This document shows positions 13,545 through 57,339 of a stretch of DNA of 64,000 bases, piece after piece; the first letter of the stretch is position 1; the number at the start of each line of letters is the position of its first letter. The position numbers and the translations under genes are program-made. Below the pieces are notes generated by a model, which saw only the letters and a list, made by a program, of their open reading frames with translations, was not told the DNA's origin and made no database searches. Source of the stretch: Terfezia claveryi (lineage: Eukaryota > Ascomycota > Pezizomycetes > Pezizales > Pezizaceae); the NCBI GenBank assembly GCA_015179025.1, contig WHUX01000008.1:186001-250000 (forward strand), read 5' to 3'.

Positions 13545-16500
13545 GGTTAACTATGAGGAGGATGATCGTTTATAAACTAGCGATGGAGCTTCGTCAACGT
13601 GTTAAGCTTAAGGTGATGTCGTAGACCAATGAAGTCAACCCAGGTAGTGTTATGCTATTGAGCTTCCACGAACAAGTATTGTGAGGTTGGTGAAGAAGAG
13701 CTATGTGGGGGGGGTTGGCTGGGGATTATGTAGTATAGTGCAGTAGGGGCAATAGTTCAAAAAAAGGATGGGAGATGTGTGTCAGGTCAAAGCGGTTGGG
13801 CTGCTCGAGAGCTAGACAGAACAGTGGGATCGTGGTTCTGGGACTGGATGTAGAGGAGGGTGGAGTGCTAAATGGGCGGATTGGATGGATTGGCTGTCTT
13901 GTGGGACTAAAAGGTACGCCCTCCCTTCGTCTTATCCTCTTGGTGCAGTACCTTCCAAGCAGCACAACACAAGCACTTCGTCGTGGTACTTGTGAAGGTA
14001 ACGGTGCTGCGGGATAAAAAAATCCTTCAAAATAGCGTAGGTAGGTGTGCGCGATGCAAAATATCGCAGGTAGACTTCATGGGCTTTGCAAGCTGTGAGT
14101 GGCCACTGGATGTCGATGCAGACGAGTTGTCAACTGCGTGTACTATTTGGGATCTTATGAGAGCTCTTGGACTGGAGCTTTTCCAGCTTCTGATCAGCCA
14201 TGTAGGATATTGATTATCTGTAGGGCATAGGGCGTTCTACTGGCCTGCTGCCGCTTGGCGGGAGCAAACTGCTGTTCAAACTTGAAAATGCGCACCTCCC
14301 ATGCCCCACAGCACATTACAAGCGGCCCTCTTCGTCCTCAGTGTGGATTCAAATCCTCCCGTCGAACTGGGTTCCTGTTAATCCTAGGCGGCTGCTACGT
14401 TGCTGGGATGCTGGGGAGGGCTAGGGATGGGAAGGAGGTGAGCAAGGGAATACGGAGGTGTGGGAGGGGAGTCTGCTCTGCTACATCCTGGGTAGAGGGT
14501 ACTTTGAAGTTGGTATTTGTTCGGTTTGTTCGTCAGCTAACTCGGAACAGAGTCCCCTCGAATGAAGTCTACGGCTATGTGAGTTGTTTCCTCTCCAGCG
14601 TTGATGCTATCTATACCTAGCAACTGGCCGGTCTTCCAAAATGTGAGAGCTTACGACCCGTGGAGCACTCTCCCAATCACTCATTTGCAACAGGGCGAGT
14701 CATCAGCCTGCTGCTGTATGATGCTCTACTGTACATCTCTGCTCAGCAAAAGTCTGAAGTGCATCCATTTCCACCGCTGGTTTCGAATGCTGTACGCGTT
14801 GCATTAAGCACCACCCAGCCAGCGGAGCCAACAAGTATCCCAGCTTTCATCATGGACCACTGACACCTACGTAAGAATAGCGTTCATCCCAATCAGATAA
14901 TTGTAACTTGACCGACCGGCAAAGCCAGGAGTAATAACTTTCAGGCAAAATGACGCCGGTCCAAGGCAGCGTTATTCTTTCCGCATAATCCTATTGGAAT
15001 CGAGACTGGAACAAGAGAGCCAGTCGCCATTCCGGTCTTAAGATAGCCAGGCCCGCAGATCAATGGAAGCGAGACGGCTCCGTTTGGCATACTTGGCCCA
15101 GACAGCTTGCTCTCTCGGTATTCTCCTCAGCCCGGCTCTGCTATATTCTATTCATATGTATGGACCTATAATTTCTTCTCCTGCCTACCTAATCATGCCC
15201 CCATTTTTGGCAAACGCTGAGCTGCATAGTCTGGCTTGCAAACAATCTACACCAGGCCCAGAATGGATTCATAGGCACACCCTCTGATCTAGTCTGGTTG
15301 GCACCTCTGATCGTCTGATTCGCCTCATGCCTGTACATCTACTAGTGCTTTCTATCTTTTGCGCAGTAACGGACATCAGAGAGGGTGATCAATGAGTGAT
15401 CACCCCCGTAGCGAACGAATAAGCAAACATCAGGACCATCCGAAGGGCACCCGAGGGAAAGTTCAAAAGCAAAAAGAAATATTGATTCTGTAGGTTGTAG
15501 CCGCAGAAAGAAAAATTGTTCAGTTTCCCTCAGAGAATGCAGAGCCGTGGGCAAAACGGCGAATATCAGTACCTGGTAATGTATGGGGAAAAAGTTTTAC
15601 GGCGAGCTTATACCTCCAATATTTACTATATCACATACCATACATATTTTACTGCAATTGCTCCACGTTGCAACTACATTCCTACATATTTATTCATGCT
15701 CCGCAATTGATTCGCTTTTACACTTGCTGTCCAACAACCTCCTTGGTTTAGTTCCATCCAACCACTAGGTTAACTGAACAAGACTCTGGTATTTTCTTGG
15801 ATCTTGTTCGCTAGTTAACCCGGTACTTTAGTCGGTTGCGCACTTCACCACCAAGCACACAGTTTTGTCTGTCTCAACATGCCGAAAGTGGACTGAACAC
15901 CTCATACTCCTGCTCGGCATTGAACATGCGACATCCTTGCGGCAGTCACCCTCCTCGGGGGCAAAATGCGTGATCAGACGCTACGCCATGTGGAAAAAAG
16001 CCGAGGGGAGGCGCGGGAGAAGGGACGGCGGAGACCTAGAATGGGAATTTCCCCACTCCCCCCCCCAGCTCCCCCTATGCTTCATCAATCCTCACGCGTG
16101 GGGGATCATGTCTCGCTATTTTGATGATGCGGGGGACAAAGAAGTCACAGAGCATCATTGCATTCAAACTTTCCACTGGCATGCCATGCAGGTGACTTCG
16201 CAATTGCTTATTTCCAATTCCCCAGACTTGATTCAGAAAAATTTCAATTCCCCCACAAGAATACCCACAACTTGGCAAGGAGGCCGAAGAAAAATTGGTA
16301 CTGGCCCAATTGCTAACCTTTCTTCTATTTCCTGGAATCGTGCTTACAATAGGGGATCTGGTTTCCGAGGCCCAATGACGTTGATCCTTGAGACTTGAGG
16401 AGGTCCAGTGCTGGAAAATCCATCTGCGGGTTAAAAAGAAATATGACGACAAAATCTAGACACCAGGCAGGAGGAGAACACGATGTCCTCAGTTTCACGT

Positions 16501-18817: not shown

Positions 18818-20173
18818 GATTGCGAGGTTGCTCAATGGATGGAAGAGAATTATACGCGGCTGGGTATAGATCTTGGGTATGAATGTGGGGCCGGGGAAGG
18901 ATGATGATTAAGGTAAACTGGAGAGGAGGTAGAGCTGCAAGTGTTGAGGTTGAAGGGTCAGAAGACAGCACGAGGAGAATAGGCAAACAGCAAGTACACC
19001 TCCCGAGAGTAATACTATGGAGAGCAAAGGAATGCACAACTTAGTCACCGTACGTACCCGGGTCCAGGGTCATCCAGCCACCGAGCTGAGCTTGAGGAGC
19101 TCTCCGCACTTGTACTCAAGCAAACGGACCAACGTAAGTGCCAGACCCTAGCTGGGCTGCCGAAAGCGGATAAGGCCGGAAGTCGGAGGAACTAGTCCAA
19201 CTCAGGAACGAAACCACTCAACGGCGGCAGTAGTTTCGGTGCCCAGCCAGACCCTTGCAGGGTTTCGGCAAGCAATTACCTACGCCAGCGGCGGATGCAA
19301 AGGTACCTCACCACGCAACAATCCCGCAGGGCTTATTTCTTTTCGATAAACTGTATACTGTTCATCACCACCAATTCATCATATGCATCGGAAGGCATAT
19401 ACATTATACATCCATCGAACCAAGTTCCAGCATATGAGATGTTTTCTCGAAGGCTCGATGTTGAGCCATTCCCGGGCCCTGGCACGGTGGGGGCTAGAAT
19501 CACAGATCGATACCGATCCTCAGGCCCAATTGCGCATGTTTCTTCGATCTCCCCACTGCCGAGCGATGCGTCATGTTGCAGGCTTTCAAATAAGACCCGG
19601 GTATCTAATATAACGGTTGAAATTGTGATATACGAGAGCGCGTTCCACAGGTGTGGAGTGTATATGTGTATATGTGCAGCCGCAGGTTTGTAGATGAGGT
19701 TCACGGGGAATCTTGCAAAGGTGTGGAGATGTACTCCCAGTATGGAACATCGATGGCTATTGGCTGAGGAAGTTGCAGCCTGACTAAGAAGGAAACCAAG
19801 TATGATATATTTAGGTTGATTGATAGGCCACCGTTTGTGACCTTGATTGCCTCAAAAGCAGGCCCTGTAAATAAACAACATCCCTCCGGCCTGACCTCTG
19901 GATCAGCGATGAGCAGCTCGGGGTTGGCCGTCGCACGCTAAATATGACATTGGAAGGTGATATGAGGGTAAGTAGGTACTCAGCTGTGGAGGAGCTCCGG
20001 TGCCAACCAGACTAGGGGATTTTTATGTAAAACAGGCCAGCAAGAGCTCCTGGCATCCGGGTTTTAAATCTTGGCGCAGATTATTCCCCGGAATGAAGAT
20101 GAAACTGTTTTGTCTGGTTTAGTCTGGCTTGCACTAGCCCCTCGCAAGTCTGGTTGAACACTGATATATCTAC

Positions 20174-20205
20174 TCGAATCTTAGTCTGGTTGGCACATCG
20201 AATCT
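20174..20205 (+). mobile_element. Micro-insertion with 8-bp target duplication
   Basis: TCGAATCT (20174-20181), then 16 bp TAGTCTGGTTGGCACA (20182-20197), then TCGAATCT again (20198-20205). A ninth base differs between the two copies (C and A). Confidence 0.7.
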
Positions 20206-20385: not shown

Positions 20386-20425
20386 TAGGCTACCTAGTCT
20401 GGTTGGCACCAGACTATAGGCTACC
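20386..20425 (+). mobile_element. 22-bp palindromic micro-insertion with 9-bp target duplication
   Basis: TAGGCTACC (20386-20394) and TAGGCTACC (20417-20425) flank a 22-bp insert (20395-20416). The insert has inverted ends TAGTCTGG and CCAGACTA around a 6-nt centre TTGGCA. This defines the minimal inverted terminal repeat of the family. Confidence 0.8.
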
Positions 20426-25696: not shown

Positions 25697-27775
25697 CTAG
25701 GATTGGGGTGTCGTAACTGTCGACATCCATCTGTCTTTCCAGCCATTCACAGAGGTCATCGGCAAGAGCTTCGTCAGAAGATCTGCTGGGTTGTCCTTCC
25801 CTGGTATCGTCCGTATCTTCAAGCGCCCTAGTCGTACTTGCTGTCGGAGATAGTGGAATCGGTGCTCTATATGTCGGCTCCTCCATGCGAACTTGGTGGC
25901 TTTGCTCAAATTGTAAGCTCCTTCGCTGTCTGTCACTAAGGTTGGTACATTCGTTATTCCTAGCTCCGAGAGGAATTGGCTCAACCAGGCTGCGTCCTTC
26001 GCTCCTTCGCAGTCGCTGATGTATTCCGCTTCGGTGATTGATAATGTCACGATGTCCTGCCTTTGACTGTACCATCCTATTAGTTGGTTCCCCAGTGTCA
26101 TCAGAACTCCTGTCTGTGATCGGGCTTCCTCCCCTCCGTATGATGCGTCTGCGTATATATTGATTGCCAATTCGTTGGCTTCTGGCTTCTTTAATTGCAG
26201 CCCATCGTACTTTGTCGAGTACAAATACCGCAAGACCTGGAGGGCTGTCTGGTAATGCTTCGGGGTATGATCCTTGGTCCTTCGTCCTAGCAAGTTGACA
26301 TGAATCGAGATCTCGGGTCTCGTCATTCGAGCGATAAAGAGTAACCCCCCTATTACTGACTGGTATTTTGTTACTTCCTCGTGGCTTCCGTCGCTGGTGT
26401 ATTGCTGTGCGTCTAGCGGCAGAGATCGCTTTCCTCCAAAAACACCATGTTGATTGATCTGAGGTAAGAAGCTTTTCGTCATTGATTCTATAAGGCGAGT
26501 TTGTGTCAGTACAACTTGTTCTTTTGACCAATGTAATTCTATTCCAAGCATATTCGAGGGTTTCCCTCGTTTGTCTAGCTCAACTCTTCCTTCAATGCCT
26601 TTCTCTACTTTGTCGAGATCTTCTTCTGTAGGGGCGATTCTGAGGAGATCATCAACATGAGTCCCAATCACAATATCGTGACGTGGGGTAGTGTAGGTTC
26701 CTTCATCTCCTATGCACTGGTGTATTCCGAGTGTGGAGAGGATATCGCAGAGAGTTTTGAACCATTCGTGGCCGGCTTGCTTTAGACCATAGAGAGCTTT
26801 ATCGAGCTTCCAGTACTCAACCTCTCCTTCCTCATTTATGTCGGTAATGTAGACATCATGTTCAAGGAGGGCTTGTAGGTATGCAGCCACAACATCCCAT
26901 TGGCGGATTGCCCAATCTCGGTGGAGGGCAATGACTAGGAGGATTTTGAGCGTTTCAGGGCGCATCATTTGTGCATAGGTTTCGTCATAGTTAACACCTG
27001 CTTCTTGAGTGAATCCTCTCCCAACCTTGCGAGCTTTATATTTCTCGATACTTCCATCTGCTTTTCTTTTGACTAGGTATACCCATTTGGTGTCAACAAT
27101 CCGTGTTCCTTCGGGGATTTCGGATTTATCGATCTTGGTATATACCCCATATCGATTTAATTGCTCTCGTTCTTTTGCTCGAGCTTTAGCCCATTCTGGA
27201 GCCTGTGGAGAGCTGCGGGCTTGCTCATCGGTTGGGTGATCTGGGTCAGCTCCTACTGCGAATATCTTCCTTCGAACTGGCTGTCGCTCTGATTTCCTGG
27301 TTCCGACCATACTTTCCCAATCTCGAGTAGTCTTTCTAGGCTTCTTTATTGGAGGTGGTGCCACGGGCTGGGGAATATCGGTTTCCCTAGGCCCTTCGCT
27401 AGGGGCTTCATCCGGAGATTCTGAGCTGCTAGTCTCCGAATCTCTTATAGGGACTGGTCGGAGGGCGAGCTTAATCTGGCCAGTGTCTGTTCGCACCTGG
27501 TAGCTTTCAAAGCTTTCTGTATAACCAATTATATTGGCTTCATAGCTTCTTGGAGAGAGCTTATCGGAGATATCATAGTTAAAGCAGAGGACTCTTTGTC
27601 CAAATGGTCTTAGCTTTGTCCGCTCGTTTCCGGGTCCTTTTTGAGCATGATTTCGATGGGGGTTTTTCCTTGAAGGTTTTATGGGGAATCCGATTCTTCG
27701 TATAGGCTGCCCAGCTCGAAGCTTTGTCCCACAGGCCTTTAGGTAAGCTGACCCTATTAGAGCGGTCCTACTCAT
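25697..27775 (-). CDS. Copia reverse transcriptase-RNase H polyprotein segment
   Basis: An uninterrupted 692-codon frame. It begins in the integrase C-terminal region, then carries the copia RT blocks TRIVDTKWVYLVKRKADGS, QWDVVAAYLQA, LDKALYGLKQAGHEW and the active-site IGTHVDDLL. RNase H follows with YADASYGG, SITEAEYIS, DSEGAYNLS and RHIEHRFHYLR, ending near IRTIPGKDNPADLLTK. The nominal ATG at 27775 is not expected to be a true start because copia pol is translated as a polyprotein with gag. All catalytic Asp residues I can identify are present. Confidence 0.93.
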   Translation of the reverse strand: MSRTALIGSAYLKACGTKLRAGQPIRRIGFPIKPSRKNPHRNHAQKGPGNERTKLRPFGQRVLCFNYDISDKLSPRSYEANIIGYTESFESYQVRTDTGQIKLALRPVPIRDSETSSSESPDEAPSEGPRETDIPQPVAPPPIKKPRKTTRDWESMVGTRKSERQPVRRKIFAVGADPDHPTDEQARSSPQAPEWAKARAKEREQLNRYGVYTKIDKSEIPEGTRIVDTKWVYLVKRKADGSIEKYKARKVGRGFTQEAGVNYDETYAQMMRPETLKILLVIALHRDWAIRQWDVVAAYLQALLEHDVYITDINEEGEVEYWKLDKALYGLKQAGHEWFKTLCDILSTLGIHQCIGDEGTYTTPRHDIVIGTHVDDLLRIAPTEEDLDKVEKGIEGRVELDKRGKPSNMLGIELHWSKEQVVLTQTRLIESMTKSFLPQINQHGVFGGKRSLPLDAQQYTSDGSHEEVTKYQSVIGGLLFIARMTRPEISIHVNLLGRRTKDHTPKHYQTALQVLRYLYSTKYDGLQLKKPEANELAINIYADASYGGEEARSQTGVLMTLGNQLIGWYSQRQDIVTLSITEAEYISDCEGAKDAAWLSQFLSELGITNVPTLVTDSEGAYNLSKATKFAWRSRHIEHRFHYLRQQVRLGRLKIRTIPGKDNPADLLTKLLPMTSVNGWKDRWMSTVTTPQS

Positions 27776-29043
27776 AGTAAGAATCGTTCAGTTTGCTCGT
27801 TCGATTATAGCATTTGTTTCACTATGCTTCGGGATAGTTTCTTTAGAGGTTATGCCTCGTTGCTTTAGCTCTTCTTGAAGCTCATTGTTGCGGAATTCTC
27901 CTCTCCAGTCTGCTTAGATTTGGCTGACTCGTAGGTTTGTGGCTGCTTCCAGTTTATTGATTATTTCGATTAATGCTTTTCCAGTCTCGCTCTTCTTTCG
28001 AAGGGGCTGTACAGCTATATACCGGCTGAAATCGTCTACAATCACTAGCAGATATCGATATTGTTTGCTAGGAGTGGGAGGTTCGATTGGCCCACAAGGT
28101 CTGTATGGACCCGTTCTAGAAGTCGGTTTGTTCTAATCTGTAGATCTTTGGGCTGCTTGGGTGTAGCTGGTTTGGTGGCCTTCCCTTGTTCACACGCCTT
28201 GCATCGGATCTTCTCTTTCTGATCCTTCGGGTATTCGGGGAGGGTTTTAAGAGTGTTATAGGAAATGTGTCCATACCTTTCGTGCAGGCTGATTACAGCT
28301 TCTTTTTCCTTGATCTTTTTTATCCCTGCTCCCTTCCAGTTTTCGACTGTATTCTCAGGCTTGATCCATATCCCATCAATATCTCGATCCATTTTGTAGA
28401 GTATTTTCCTTCCTGTTTTTAGCTCTACCTTGCCCTTTTTTCCTTGCATGACGAAGTCCTCTAGCATCCGAAGGCCGCTGATAATGTTGCTGTATGTGGG
28501 GTCATATAAGCATTGCTCGTGGCGGATGTTGCGGCCATTGTGTCTGAAGACTAGAGTTCCTATAGTGTGGCAAATGGATTCGGTCTGATCGTGAGCGGAT
28601 ACCTTGATGCTGAGGTTGTGTTGGACATCGGTAAGTCGGTCGTATTCGTTGGTCGTATGGTGGGTGGCTGCTGTGTCATATTCATAACATCCTTCACGTC
28701 CTACCCTTGTTTTCCCAATCCGAACAACCTTGATAGTGACTCCTTCTTCATCAGATTCTTCATTGTCGGATCTTCCTTCTTAGCCTTCTTGACTTTTCTC
28801 TTTTCGCGCTTTTTGGTAAAGCACTCGGATTCTGTGTGGTTGAGTCCTTTCCATCCTTTGCTGATGCAGTAGTCACATCTTTTGCCATTATCTCCTTGAT
28901 CCCGTCCCCTGCCAGCTCCTGTTTGAGCACTACTGGGTTTTGTACCGAATCTCCAGCATTATCTCCTCTCCTTTTCCCCTTTTGCCTACCTGGGACGTAT
29001 GTCTTGAGATGAGTAGTGATATCGCCATAAGTAAGTCCACTCT
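27776..29043 (-). pseudogene. Copia zinc knuckle, protease and integrase region, frame-broken
   Basis: Domains are present but in different frames: zinc knuckle CDYC..NHTESEC (28820-28877), protease DTAATHH (near 28660-28680), the integrase HHCC finger HERYGHIS..CKACEQGK (28180-28300), and the catalytic core with HTDLVG, VIVDDFSRY, ADWRGEF and ERANRTI (27780-28100). Frame changes fall between gag and knuckle, between knuckle and protease and after HTDLVG; a TAA precedes ADWRGEF. A functional polyprotein cannot be read through this segment. Confidence 0.8.
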
Positions 29044-29799
29044 TCATCTGGATATTTTAATAAGAGTATTGTAGTAGGGCGGAAGAGTGGCTAGCAGAAA
29101 CGTCCCTTTGGCTTGGTCGTTTTTGCTTAAGCCTGTCAATATTGTTCCGAATTTTTTAAGGTCGTCTGGGATCGTTCCTCCCAACATGGATCTCATGAAT
29201 CCCCACTTTTTGTCGAACTCGCTAATATGTTCTTCGATTGAACTATTTCTATCGTCATAGCTGAGTTTGATGACTCCAATAAGTAGAGCTCTGAGTGTGG
29301 TGACAGTCTTGCCTTCAAATTTGGCCTTCAGCTCTTTATAGGCTTCATTAGCTGTTCTGGCTAGTCCGATAATATCTACAACCTCTTTCTCGCAATTTCT
29401 TTTCATTGTAAGGATTGCGAAGTTGTTGTCTTTCTTCCAGGCTTTAGCATCTGCATCTCTGGCTTTTCCGGTGGCTGTGGGATCTGGATCTTGGACATCT
29501 CCGGTGACGATTTCCCATATTGTCTCATCTTTGTGTTCATAGCTGCTAAGCGTTTGCTCAATGGATAGTATCCACTGAGCATAGTCCTGTTGTCCGCTAA
29601 GCTTGGGCTCGATCTTTGAGATTGATCGTTCTTTGGACATAGTTGCTGGAGGTGGTGTTGGTGAATCTGGTGGTGGAGGAGGTGGAGTTCTTGCTCTTCG
29701 CCCTCTTCTTCGTTGGACCTGAATGTTGACTGGGAGATTTGGATATTCGACTTCGTGCTCTGATTCGGTTTCTGGGGCTGGTCCTGCTGTGCCGCTCAT
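29044..29799 (-). CDS. Copia gag (capsid-like) ORF
   Basis: 251 codons from ATG at 29799. A proline-rich N-terminus precedes KLSGQQDYAQWILSIEQTLS, the usual start of the UBN2/gag domain of copia elements; LRALLIGVIKLSYDDRNSS and ILTGLSKNDQAKGTFLLATL follow. It ends at a stop in an A-run near 29060 where the next frame resumes with MKSGLTYGD, so a one-base loss probably truncates it before the zinc knuckle. Confidence 0.85.
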   Translation of the reverse strand: MSGTAGPAPETESEHEVEYPNLPVNIQVQRRRGRRARTPPPPPPDSPTPPPATMSKERSISKIEPKLSGQQDYAQWILSIEQTLSSYEHKDETIWEIVTGDVQDPDPTATGKARDADAKAWKKDNNFAILTMKRNCEKEVVDIIGLARTANEAYKELKAKFEGKTVTTLRALLIGVIKLSYDDRNSSIEEHISEFDKKWGFMRSMLGGTIPDDLKKFGTILTGLSKNDQAKGTFLLATLPPYYNTLIKISR

Positions 29800-34892: not shown

Positions 34893-36699
34893 GTACCCTC
34901 TAGCGCCTATTAACGAACAGGGATGGGCTAACGAACACCCCTGTAGCCAAGTGTCTCCAGCCACAATTTATGATATAGCAGGAGCTATGATGAGAAGCTT
35001 GTTCCGGCTTAATACATAACTATGGAAACAAACTACGCTCTACAAGACGGTTGCCCTCACATCTCGGCAAAATTCACTCTATGCCAAATAACATACCTTC
35101 TAATATGACCTCCCCGATGACCCCCCTCTTCCCCCTCTACCCTACCCTTAGGCCGAGCAACTTGCCAACAAGTAAATAGATACTATGGAGAGCTCAACCA
35201 AGGGTCTATATCTATATTAGAATAGCTCTTATAGCAGAAGCCTAATATATGGTGCCAGGGTATGGTTAGAACGAGAGGCACATATCTCTGAAAAATAAAT
35301 AATTCCAAGAATTCTTATTTAATTAACAAAATCGTCCCCACTTATGCCCCACTCAAACCACCTCCTTCCAAAGCCGTCTTCCTGGTATCCTTAACCACTA
35401 TGGTAAGGTCTCCAATAGAACTAAAAGTACCGATACTCCCCCTTTTGGGCTTCAATAGTCCCTTCGGTAGGGGGAGTATCCCAGCCTCCTCAAGGGGCGT
35501 TTCAGTCCCTCAAAGCAACCATATGTTCATAGTTAATCCAGAGTAAAACCCTGCTGCACTTGCCTCCAACTCAGAAGCTCTACTAGCACCTAAATCAGTA
35601 TTCAACCTAGAGATTGTCTCAGCATCTTCCCAAATTGCTTTTCCGGCTTCCAACTTGAATCTACTATCCAACTTAGTAACCAACCCAAAGCTAAACCCAA
35701 TATCCAACCTAGTGTTCAATCTAAGTATCTAAGCCAGAGTCAACCTAAGTATTTAACCTAGTCTGGTTAGCACAACTCCTCGTAGAGATGAACTTAGTAT
35801 TAAACCGTGTTGAACCCACCATTGAACCCAGCCAGCATTGAATGCATATCGAACCTAGTATTTAACGTAGTTTCTACTATCAGGACTCTCCTACCATCAA
35901 CCAGATATCACAGTTCACCATCTAACCCTACTGCTCTCTCAGATTTTAACCTAGAAATTAACCGAAATTTCCAACCTAATATCGGACCCCGGAGCTCTCC
36001 TAGCAGAGGCCCGAACGCCGAACTAAGAAGCCCTCGCAGTGCCCAGTTAGTCCTCATATATGGAAATTAGCTTGTACTAATATCCATGGTTGTATGCCCT
36101 TTGAGGAGGCTGGGATACCCCCCCTACTGAAGGGACTATTGAAGCCCAAGAGGGGAGGTATCAGTGCTTCTAGTTCTATTGGAGACCTCACCATAGTGGT
36201 TGAGGATACCAGGAAGGGGCGTCGGAGGGAGGTAGTTCTAGTGGAGCATAAGTGGAGAGGATTTTGTTAATTAAATAAGAATTCTCGGAATTATTTATTT
36301 TTCAGAGATATGTACCTCTCATTTCGACCATATACTGGCACCATATATTAGGCTTCTGCTACAAGAGCTATTCTAACATAGATATAGACCTTTTATTAAG
36401 CTCTCCATAGTATCTATTCACTTATTAGCAGGTTGCTCGGCCTAAGGGTAGGGTAGAGAGGGAAAGGGGGGGTCATCGGGGAGGTCATATTAGAAGATAT
36501 GTTATTTGGCATAGAGTAAATTTTGCCGAGATGTGAAGGCAACCGTCTTGTAGAGCGTAGTTGTTTCCATAGTTATGTATTAAGCCGGAACAAGCTTCTC
36601 ATCATAGCTCCTGCTATATCATAAATTGTGGCTGGAGACACTTGGCTACAGGGGTGTTCGTTAGCCCATCCCTGTTCGTTAATAGGTACTAGAGGGTAC
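34893..36699. mobile_element. 1.8-kb foldback element with ~600-bp inverted arms
   Basis: The left arm (34893 to about 35515) and right arm (about 36095 to 36699) are inverted copies with scattered differences: both outer ends read GTACCCTCTAG inward and the inner ends share CCCAGCCTCCTCAA. The ~570-bp centre is made of degenerate AACCTAGT-like repeats and has no gene. It starts 13 bp after the preceding TIR element. Confidence 0.8.
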
Positions 36700-36761: not shown

Positions 36762-36987
36762 TAACGTAGTCGACGGGGGTAGCGAGCTGCCTGGGAAGCG
36801 AGCCGATAAGGGGCACTAAGCCTAAAATTATCAACTTGAGTTGTCCGTAGTCTCGAATCCGTGTACGCTGTACGTAGTTAGTCTGGTTGCTACGTAGTCT
36901 GGTTGGCACCAGTTTCTTACTCTGGAGCGTTAGTGCCCCTTATCGGCTCGCTTCCAAGGCAGGCTCGCTACCTCGTCAACTACGTTA
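36762..36987. mobile_element. 226-bp MITE-like hairpin
   Basis: Arms of 58 bp (36762-36819 and 36930-36987) are near-perfect inverted repeats sharing TAACGTAGT at the ends and AAGCGAGCCGATAAGGGGCA inside. The 110-bp loop carries two copies of the TAGTCTGG motif. Confidence 0.75.
36871..36898 (+). mobile_element. Micro-insertion with 8-bp target duplication inside a MITE loop
   Basis: TACGTAGT (36871-36878), TAGTCTGGTTGC (36879-36890), TACGTAGT (36891-36898). A second related copy, CTGGTTGGCACCAG, follows at once (36899-36912), suggesting one insertion landed in an older one. Confidence 0.6.
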
Positions 36988-38015: not shown

Positions 38016-38671
38016 TTAGAGAGGTTTTGGTCCCCTGTAAGAATGACTGTTACTGCAGCAACCACCACACGCTAATGCAATTGCTGGGTTCATGCTCAAT
38101 GGAATATCTTATGTGCTTCTTGGCGCTATCTTTAACAACAAATCTCTTGATAGGGTTAGATCGTTCACTATGGCGTCAAATATTCCCCTATTCGGGTGGC
38201 AATCATTGTCAAAAACGTATAAAAAGAAATACAATAACCGAACCATGAGAATCGTAGGTATTCAAGGCACTCAGTATCTCCCATCCCGCATCTACTTTTG
38301 TCTTCTCATATGCAATTGGAGCTCGATATTGTGGTACGCCATCATCATCATCGGAGATATCTGCTGCAAGGACACTGGTATACTAAACTATTAGCACCAC
38401 CCCACATGACCATGGTATCCGTAGTTTGGTTGGTGATCCGCCAGTCTCATGCCAAGACCCTACTGCTAGGGTGTTCTAACGAACGCAGTGAGGCATGTTG
38501 CACGTGTGTAAGGGAGATAGCAACAAGAGATATCCATGGAATTCCATAGTCTCATGCCAAGACCCTGGAATTCCAAAACCTCTTTTTTTGCACTTTGGTG
38601 CTTACCGGGGTCTAAGTGTTGCGACATGGGTTGAGAGTTGTCATTCTTACAGGGGACCAAAACCTCTCTAA
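38016..38671. mobile_element. 656-bp Tc1/mariner-like non-autonomous element
   Basis: The ends are near-perfect 32-bp inverted repeats beginning TTAGAGAGGTTTTGGTCCCC, and TA dinucleotides flank both sides (38014-38015, 38672-38673), the hallmark target duplication of Tc1/mariner elements. Internal frames (longest 100 codons at 38092) show no DDE/D motif that I can identify. Confidence 0.78.
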
Positions 38672-38712
38672 TATGGAGTGCCGAAAAGCCATGATTTCCA
38701 TGCTAATGTATA

Positions 38713-38864
38713 GGCCGCGAAAGCATGGTTTTCTTACATATAGAGAGGCCGCGAAAGCATGGTTTTCATACATATAGAGAGACTGCGAAAGCATGGTTTT
38801 CATTAGTCTGGTTGGCACAGGTCGTTGTGCCAACCAGACTAGGTTTTCATACATATAGAGACCT
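38713..38864 (+). repeat. 34-bp tandem repeat, three units, third interrupted
   Basis: Units 38713-38746 and 38747-38780 share GCGAAAGCATGGTTTTC and ACATATAGAGA; the third starts at 38781 and is split after GGTTTTCAT by the 38-bp micro-insertion, resuming at 38842. Confidence 0.85.
38795..38850. mobile_element. 38-bp perfect inverted-repeat micro-insertion with 9-bp target duplication
   Basis: GGTTTTCAT (38795-38803) and GGTTTTCAT (38842-38850) flank a 38-bp insert: TAGTCTGGTTGGCAC (38804-38818), an 8-nt centre, and the exact complement GTGCCAACCAGACTA (38827-38841). The two upstream 34-bp units show the uninterrupted target, so the duplication is insertion-made and not ancestral. Confidence 0.88.
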
Positions 38865-56663: not shown

Positions 56664-57339
56664 GGAGTAAGGCATTTAGATTTCTCGTTCCGGTTTGATT
56701 TGCATGGTCGGGGAGTTTTGTTTACTTTAGAAAAAATACAGCTAGATATTCACGAGAACCATTGAAAGTTTCAATAGAATTTCGCGAACGGAGTGGTGAA
56801 GGGAAACGAGGGGAGTATGTTTTTAAGGAGTCGTAAGTATTATTTATTTATTGAGATAACATTTGAAATCGACACCGGGTAGCAAATAACATTTGAAATC
56901 GACATCATGCAGACTCCCATCACATCCGACAGCACTAAAGCAACACTAAACCCAACCAGACTACACTAAACCTTTCTAACCAACACAACCAAATACGCGC
57001 GTTATTCACACGCGCTTCCACAGCGCTGCAGATAGAAGCCAGCATACTTAGGTAATCCAACCTTTACAGAGCTCGATGCGCATACATCACGAGACTAACA
57101 TCACACAAGCATAGCACGCACACACGTGAGCACACCACGCGCAGCAGCATACCCTGCATAGCCAGCACCCAGCATACCCAGCATACCCAGCAGCACGCGC
57201 AGCAGCATCCCGCCGGCACCCTTCACTACTCACAGCGCTCACCTGGGGTTCGGCAAGTTCGGCACCAGGTACGGTATCCATTCACGCTCCCCAATCCCAC
57301 CCTGCTAATCCACGCGCTCCCAGCTGCTTCACTACGCGT
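56664..57339. other. Intergenic with a micro-insertion and CAGCATACC repeats
   Basis: No gene seen. AAATAACATTTGAAATCGACA occurs twice near 56850-56905 in a short direct repeat, and CCCAGCATA-type short repeats lie near 57160-57190. Confidence 0.45.
56944..56972 (-). mobile_element. Micro-insertion CAACCAGACTA with 9-bp target duplication
   Basis: CACTAAACC (56944-56952), CAACCAGACTA (56953-56963), CACTAAACC (56964-56972). The insert is the right end of the same motif family. Confidence 0.65.

Follow-up and report, generated by a model that had tools for sequence, protein, structure and literature searches.

Short inverted-repeat inserts between target copies in the Terfezia claveryi genome as candidate excision footprints of DNA transposons

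Described transposon systems and the window

Excision footprints are usually examined locus by locus in the laboratory. Scars of P elements can keep tips of one or both inverted repeats, and a second element may use the target copy of the first. hAT transposons generate 8-bp target duplications, and no 15-30 nt stretch of the repeat stays behind in their scars. According to excerpts of a published account (PMC7776569), the P element transposase cuts deep in the inverted repeat with a 17-nt stagger, and the target duplication is 8 bp. For Muta1, a MULE of Aedes aegypti, excerpts of another report give target duplications of 8 or 9 bp and excision in yeast that was approximately 90% precise with target copies present; up to 13 bp of the repeat was left, occasionally, only in constructs without target copies (PMC5225508).

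We analysed a stretch of 64,000 nucleotides of Terfezia claveryi (the window; C773:186001-250000) from an assembly of 72.56 Mb in 794 contigs. It encodes a WAPL-like protein whose best match is from Terfezia boudieri (88% identity over 98% of the query) and contains a uracil phosphoribosyltransferase gene. Pieces of a Copia-type retrotransposon (RVT_2, gag) lie at 25697-29799, and no Rfam or tRNA match was found in the window. A 38-bp palindrome in this window is most likely one of thousands of scars in the genome rather than a tiny transposon. On balance, and by a modest preference, we interpret it as the excision footprint of one or more cut-and-paste DNA transposons that duplicate 9 bp of target and whose transposase would cut inside its own ends.

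Such cutting inside the inverted repeat would be shared with the P elements of Drosophila, as far as they are described in the excerpts. Two differences from that description stand out: P elements duplicate 8 bp, whereas the copies here are mostly 9 bp and sometimes 8 bp, which does not place the scars in the P superfamily, and the P-element stagger is 17 nt, whereas the tips retained here are mostly 10-15 or 25-34 nt. A duplication of about 9 bp is characteristic of MULEs and is found here, but excision of Muta1 is mostly precise in the excerpted report and the scars here commonly keep tips of 10-34 nt. MITEs resemble the units in their TIR ends, target duplication and lack of coding capacity. 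They have two inverted ends, however, whereas 13 of 16 sites with an exact target copy are single-ended, and the units here, at 10-34 nt with a variable right border, are unlike them. hAT transposons are numerous in the genome (150 scored matches to the hAT dimer domain), but their duplication length and scar type differ from those described here. Taken together, the scars appear to work like those of P elements yet carry MULE-like target copies; kinship to either group is a candidate relationship. As judged from titles and the opening lines of abstracts, the literature on footprints, solo TIRs, MULEs, P elements and desert truffle genomes contained no description of such scars, and none of the papers containing the sequence was, by its title, on transposons.

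The palindrome and the abundance of its ends

As the initial annotation had reported, the sequence at 38804-38841 is a perfect 38-bp inverted repeat between 9-bp copies of GGTTTTCAT (Table 1). Its layout is TAGTCTGGTTGGCACA-GGTCGT-TGTGCCAACCAGACTA, so that the arms first given as 15 nt with an 8-nt spacer are in fact 16 nt with a loop of 6 nt. The palindrome lies within unit 3 of a tandem array with a 34-bp period, which had been taken to offer two uninterrupted controls. Unit 2 is indeed an exact empty site, which on alignment to the occupied site lacks only the insert and one target copy; unit 1 carries GGTTTTCTT, with one mismatch to the target. An identical 38-bp palindrome is found at one further place, C615:10289-10326, reflecting either a second event or a duplicated locus.

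The 15-mer at the end of the palindrome, TAGTCTGGTTGGCAC, occurs 10 times in the window at up to two mismatches, compared with 0.08 expected, and 2,885 times exactly in the genome, compared with 0 for the reversed control; it is therefore not a chance sequence. Its first 11 nt, TAGTCTGGTTG, have 5,960 exact copies genome-wide (57 for the reversed control), whereas single extensions of the end to 25 and 30 nt have 232 and 53, respectively. As each of the two extensions represents one subfamily, the falling counts partly reflect a split into subfamilies; they also indicate that the part in wide common use is the tip. A 24-nt extended end gave 0 matches to viral contigs. We also observed a second TIR family, TAGTCTCATGCCAAGACCC, at window 38537-38575, C1:65132 and C1:141835, with 130 exact copies of the 19-mer genome-wide; the two families have TAGTCT and an ACCCTCC block in common.

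A constant short sequence at thousands of places is what an assembly or library artefact, such as an adapter or junction sequence, would also produce. We find this scarcely credible, given that the ends fall into many subfamilies with point-mutated copies, that one insert is nested in another (C1 174468/174483) and that the target copies are tied to the local sequence. To our knowledge, the end sequence is not that of any known adapter.

Table 1. The palindrome, its site and other putative scars in the window
Feature	Position	Strand	Flanks or basis
Putative two-ended scar, 38 bp: tip TAGTCTGGTTGGCACA left, GGTCGT, tip TGTGCCAACCAGACTA right	38804..38841	.	sequence
9-bp target copy GGTTTTCAT, left	38795..38803	+	sequence
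9-bp target copy GGTTTTCAT, right	38842..38850	+	sequence
34-bp tandem array, source of the empty-site control	38712..38803	+	2.7 copies
Putative single-ended scar, 14-15 nt	15290..15303	+	target CCTCTGATC at 15281-15289 and 15304-15312
Putative single-ended scar, 28 nt, TAGTCTGGCTTGCAC subfamily	20120..20147	+	8-bp GTCTGGTT each side
Putative single-ended scar, 16 nt	20182..20197	+	8-bp target TCGAATCT each side
Putative two-ended scar, 22 bp, TAGTCTGGTTGGCACCAGACTA	20395..20416	.	target TAGGCTACC each side
Putative single-ended scar, 12 nt	36879..36890	+	8-bp TACGTAGT each side; right copy overlaps the start of another end, 36895
Putative single-ended scar, 11 nt	56953..56963	-	target GGTTTAGTG each side
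Putative scar of the second TIR family, TAGTCTCATGCCAAGACCC, 19 nt	38547..38565	+	10-bp flank TGGAATTCCA each side
Possible 39-nt scar, TAGTCTGGTTAGCAC subfamily (weak)	35759..35797	+	9-bp flank, one mismatch

Single-ended and two-ended inserts

We examined target copies in a 264-kb sample consisting of the window and C1:1-200000, chosen blind to the finding except for including the window. Exact TAGTCTGG was located on both strands and a copy of its left flank was sought up to 45 nt downstream; because the ends are anchored on this word, the exactness of the left border, which lies at the TIR tip, is partly by construction. A duplicated flank was found at 29 of 53 such ends, compared with 2 of 30 for three scrambled words; the 53 are ends and not sites, and three two-ended sites are counted twice. 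The copies were exactly 9 nt long in 13 cases, 10-12 nt in 5, 6-8 nt in 9, and 9 nt with one mismatch in 2. For the related words TAGTCTCA and TAGTCTCG, the corresponding fractions were 3/16 and 5/13, respectively. Judging from 8-mer frequency, about 8 of the 53 TAGTCTGG ends would be expected by chance. No duplication was detected by this test at the other 24 ends; if the footprint model is right, the remaining unduplicated ends must be old, shortened or composite.

Exact 9-bp copies were present at 16 sites in the sample, comprising 13 single-ended inserts, two two-ended inserts and the outer insert of a nested pair. The single-ended inserts, each followed by the second target copy, were 10-15 nt (nine) or 25-34 nt (four) in length, with none between. 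Sites with copies of 7-8 nt add lengths such as 16 and 17, and a further two-ended site, C1 88848, has a target copy with one mismatch. Of the 53 places with the 30-mer, which represents one subfamily, we fetched and read 20. At 15 of these (14 of 19 once L064 and L071, which are one duplicated locus, are counted together), a 9-bp copy mismatched at no more than one position lay 28-33 nt into the insert; one place had a copy with two mismatches and four had none. Past nucleotide 33, no 12-mer was common to any two of the 20, except between the duplicates L064 and L071 and, through a facing tip, between L053 and L054.

At some sites the right-hand copy is shortened: 6 nt remain at C1 12792, 8 nt at window 20182 and 36879, and 5 nt at C1 65486, which was read by eye and lies under the threshold of the test. 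At several sites the tip shares 0-2 nt with the right copy. Complete copies on either side are expected of transposition, whereas end joining need not leave them, so the shortened copies look like repair of an excision break; the 8-nt copies could equally be a true 8-bp duplication. Inserts are also found within one another or side by side. The insert at C1 174468 lies within an older scar at 174483, which indicates repeated events. At L064:42-129 and L071, two opposed tips belonging to different subfamilies lie among three copies of the 9-bp target GGGAATCTT, so that this target was used twice. Opposed tips in a chain, with CTGATATCC copies between them, are seen at L019:1425-1546; at this locus, as at L064/L071, one target served two or three times.

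In single-ended inserts of 32-34 nt, such as L058, L064 and C1 65902, the far border often coincides with the foot of a small predicted hairpin, CCTCC-loop-GGAGG, with a loop that varies between copies (for example, CCTCC-ACA-GGAGG). A terminal hairpin was rejected as a rule for long inserts, as several of 13 folded inserts fail it. The 25-34 nt class may arise because the transposase cuts at a second position, because a hairpin stops trimming, or through snap-back synthesis. These hairpins, together with one constant and one variable border, also bring to mind a small RNA with the terminus ...GUGCCAACCAGACUA-3' that was copied in by target-primed reverse transcription, the 15-nt class being the products of early stops. 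We consider this very improbable: the duplications, mostly of 8-9 bp, suggest a transposase or integrase, palindromes with matching arms would need two RNAs of one subfamily, and the hairpin end is absent from some long inserts.

Facing pairs of the 15-mer were found genome-wide at 46 places with 0-30 nt between them and at 18 places with 31-60 nt; several of the five wider-spaced places that were inspected at least partly are clusters of more than one insert. With subfamily assigned by the first four bases, the two arms agreed in 19 of the 22 classifiable cases among the 46 (mean of 10.5 on shuffling, with none of 20,000 shuffles reaching 19), which suggests that both tips tend to derive from one molecule. 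Of the three discordant cases, C1:725085 has a target copy in the middle of the palindrome, so some palindromes represent two events. Among the C1 ends listed, 13 close pairs (100 nt or less) comprise eight facing, four in the same direction and one divergent.

The initial annotation had viewed the 38-bp unit as a complete mobile element, a micro-MITE that is itself cut and pasted by a transposase acting in trans. Perfect two-ended palindromes with 9-bp copies at window 38804, window 20395 and L020 fit this idea, as do four two-ended units that occur at two places each, the palindrome of the window (C615) among them, and one 33-nt single-ended unit that recurs. A cut-and-paste element needs both ends, however, and only one is present at 13 of the 16 sites in the 264 kb whose 9-bp copy is exact. 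In addition, 42 distinct interiors were counted among the 46 two-ended places (reverse complements merged), right borders are variable and right copies are sometimes shortened, and a substrate of 22-38 bp would offer little room for two bound transposase subunits. These observations disfavour mobility of the unit itself, which we regard as unlikely.

That the insertion is transposase-related, as was also proposed, agrees with the many copies flanked by 8-9 bp duplications and with empty sites in paralogous DNA. Of 38 collected inserts, 26 had enough flank for an empty-site test, in which the flanks were joined without the insert and the second copy and compared with the sequence read, including paralogous DNA. 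Three gave clean empty sites: window 38804 (array unit 2), C1 152134 (compared with C1 129390-129560) and C1 65902 (compared with C1 65310-65470). Two were ragged (window 56963 and C1 152612), and 21 had no paralogue in the DNA compared. The flank check suggested at the outset thus found direct repeats commonly in the sample read and empty sites in paralogous DNA; neither of the two outcomes named there as refuting transposition was seen in that sample. Separately, a repeat with an inverted self-similarity of about 73% over 1 kb was seen at C1:128939-129879 (L043) and C1:151227-152578 (L046); it has several copies, and scars lie in one of them.

Source of the ends and proposed formation of the scars

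No pair of ends up to 15 kb apart with matching target copies spanned more than 38 nt in the 264 kb, and no common sequence longer than 45 nt bounded by these ends was found in approximately 309 kb. The latter corresponds to 0.4% of the genome, so that several hundred long elements genome-wide are compatible with this result. A single longer repeat, at C1 128862, starts at a near-match, TAGTCTTG, but was rejected because its other copies extend upstream and it is not bounded by the end. C773:251583, considered as a long element adjoining the window, is itself a 29-nt scar with target GCACGACTC. About 5 kb from a 29-nt scar, L052:230-1855 contains an open MULE transposase gene with MULE and SWIM domains, followed by a long stretch of short repeats. 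No link between this MULE (C773:256669) and the ends emerged at the locus. It is the one that was read among 21 MULE transposase matches genome-wide. A search for the P-type catalytic domain PF21787 gave no match, and control searches were likewise silent. The initially suggested link to Mutator is a tentative one, through the 9-bp duplication; MULE transposases are present in the genome, but none was tied to the ends.

The inserts could instead arise from aborted or one-ended insertion. A transposase would join one end, or sometimes both, to a target cut with a 9-bp stagger; the remaining element would be severed 10-34 nt inside and the gap sealed by end joining, so that the site never held a complete element. 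One border fixed at the TIR tip and the other variable would be expected from this process, and it accords with the lack of a long element in the DNA read. It also accords with two negative results: no TAGTCT-type insert flanked by exact 9-bp copies measured less than 10 nt, and bare 9-bp tandem duplications showed no clear excess (12 at distance 0 compared with 3-29 at distances 1-9). Against it, the arms of two-ended inserts mostly belong to the same subfamily, which requires both ends of one molecule, and reuse of one target is easier to explain by repeated insertion and excision. We know of no system in which aborted or one-ended insertion is the main product. We consider this explanation a live rival, though not a probable one.

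The fixed tip border, the variable other border, the copies of mostly 8-9 bp, the one- and two-ended forms that tend to derive from one molecule and the absence of a long element in the DNA read together point to donor-site scars. In the footprint model that we prefer, a longer element would once have filled the sites. One transposon, or perhaps several related ones, with inverted ends TAGTCTGGTTGGCAC would insert and duplicate 9 bp of target. On exit the transposase would cut within the inverted ends of its own element, at about 15 nt and about 25-33 nt from the tip, leaving single-stranded inverted-repeat tips at the donor break. End joining that keeps both tips would give a two-ended palindrome, as at 38804-38841. 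Filling of one tip, with the other clipped back until the double-stranded target copy is reached, would yield the common single-ended form, 10-15 or 25-34 nt long. Having the same sequence, the two tips could not anneal to each other, and loss of both would be invisible because the two 9-bp copies can re-anneal. Several points weigh against this model: a parent element was not recovered, 24 of 53 ends are unduplicated, arms are discordant in 3 of 22 cases and some two-ended units are repeated. Random trimming of both tips might also leave some inserts shorter than 10 nt or bare duplications; the lack of the former and of a clear excess of the latter counts against footprints.

If so formed, the scars allow a rough count of events. 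The C1 ends listed as far as position 763,984, where both strands are represented, number 80, and 16 of them face a partner no more than 100 nt away; this would correspond to a retention of about 0.2 for each tip, taken as independent, and to roughly one-third of excisions being visible. On this rough estimate, the number of excisions behind the 5,960 ends would be well above ten thousand. One scar per jump at a flat copy number would explain why scars outnumber elements. We tentatively entertain, as a possibility short of a probability, that the scars derive from an undescribed transposase group of this fungal lineage that cuts about 15 and about 25-33 nt inside its ends, duplicates 9 bp and leaves a tagged scar at many of its jumps while its copy number stays tiny.

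These results caution that a short palindrome with a target duplication need not be a mobile unit. The approximately 6,000 exact 11-nt tips, many of them tied to target copies, would provide a bulk measurement of target choice, cut position and end joining, and the scars could record past jumping, counted independently of surviving copies. If such a transposase group existed, the genome of this truffle would keep a countable record of upwards of ten thousand jumps, made by elements that have since become rare or disappeared.
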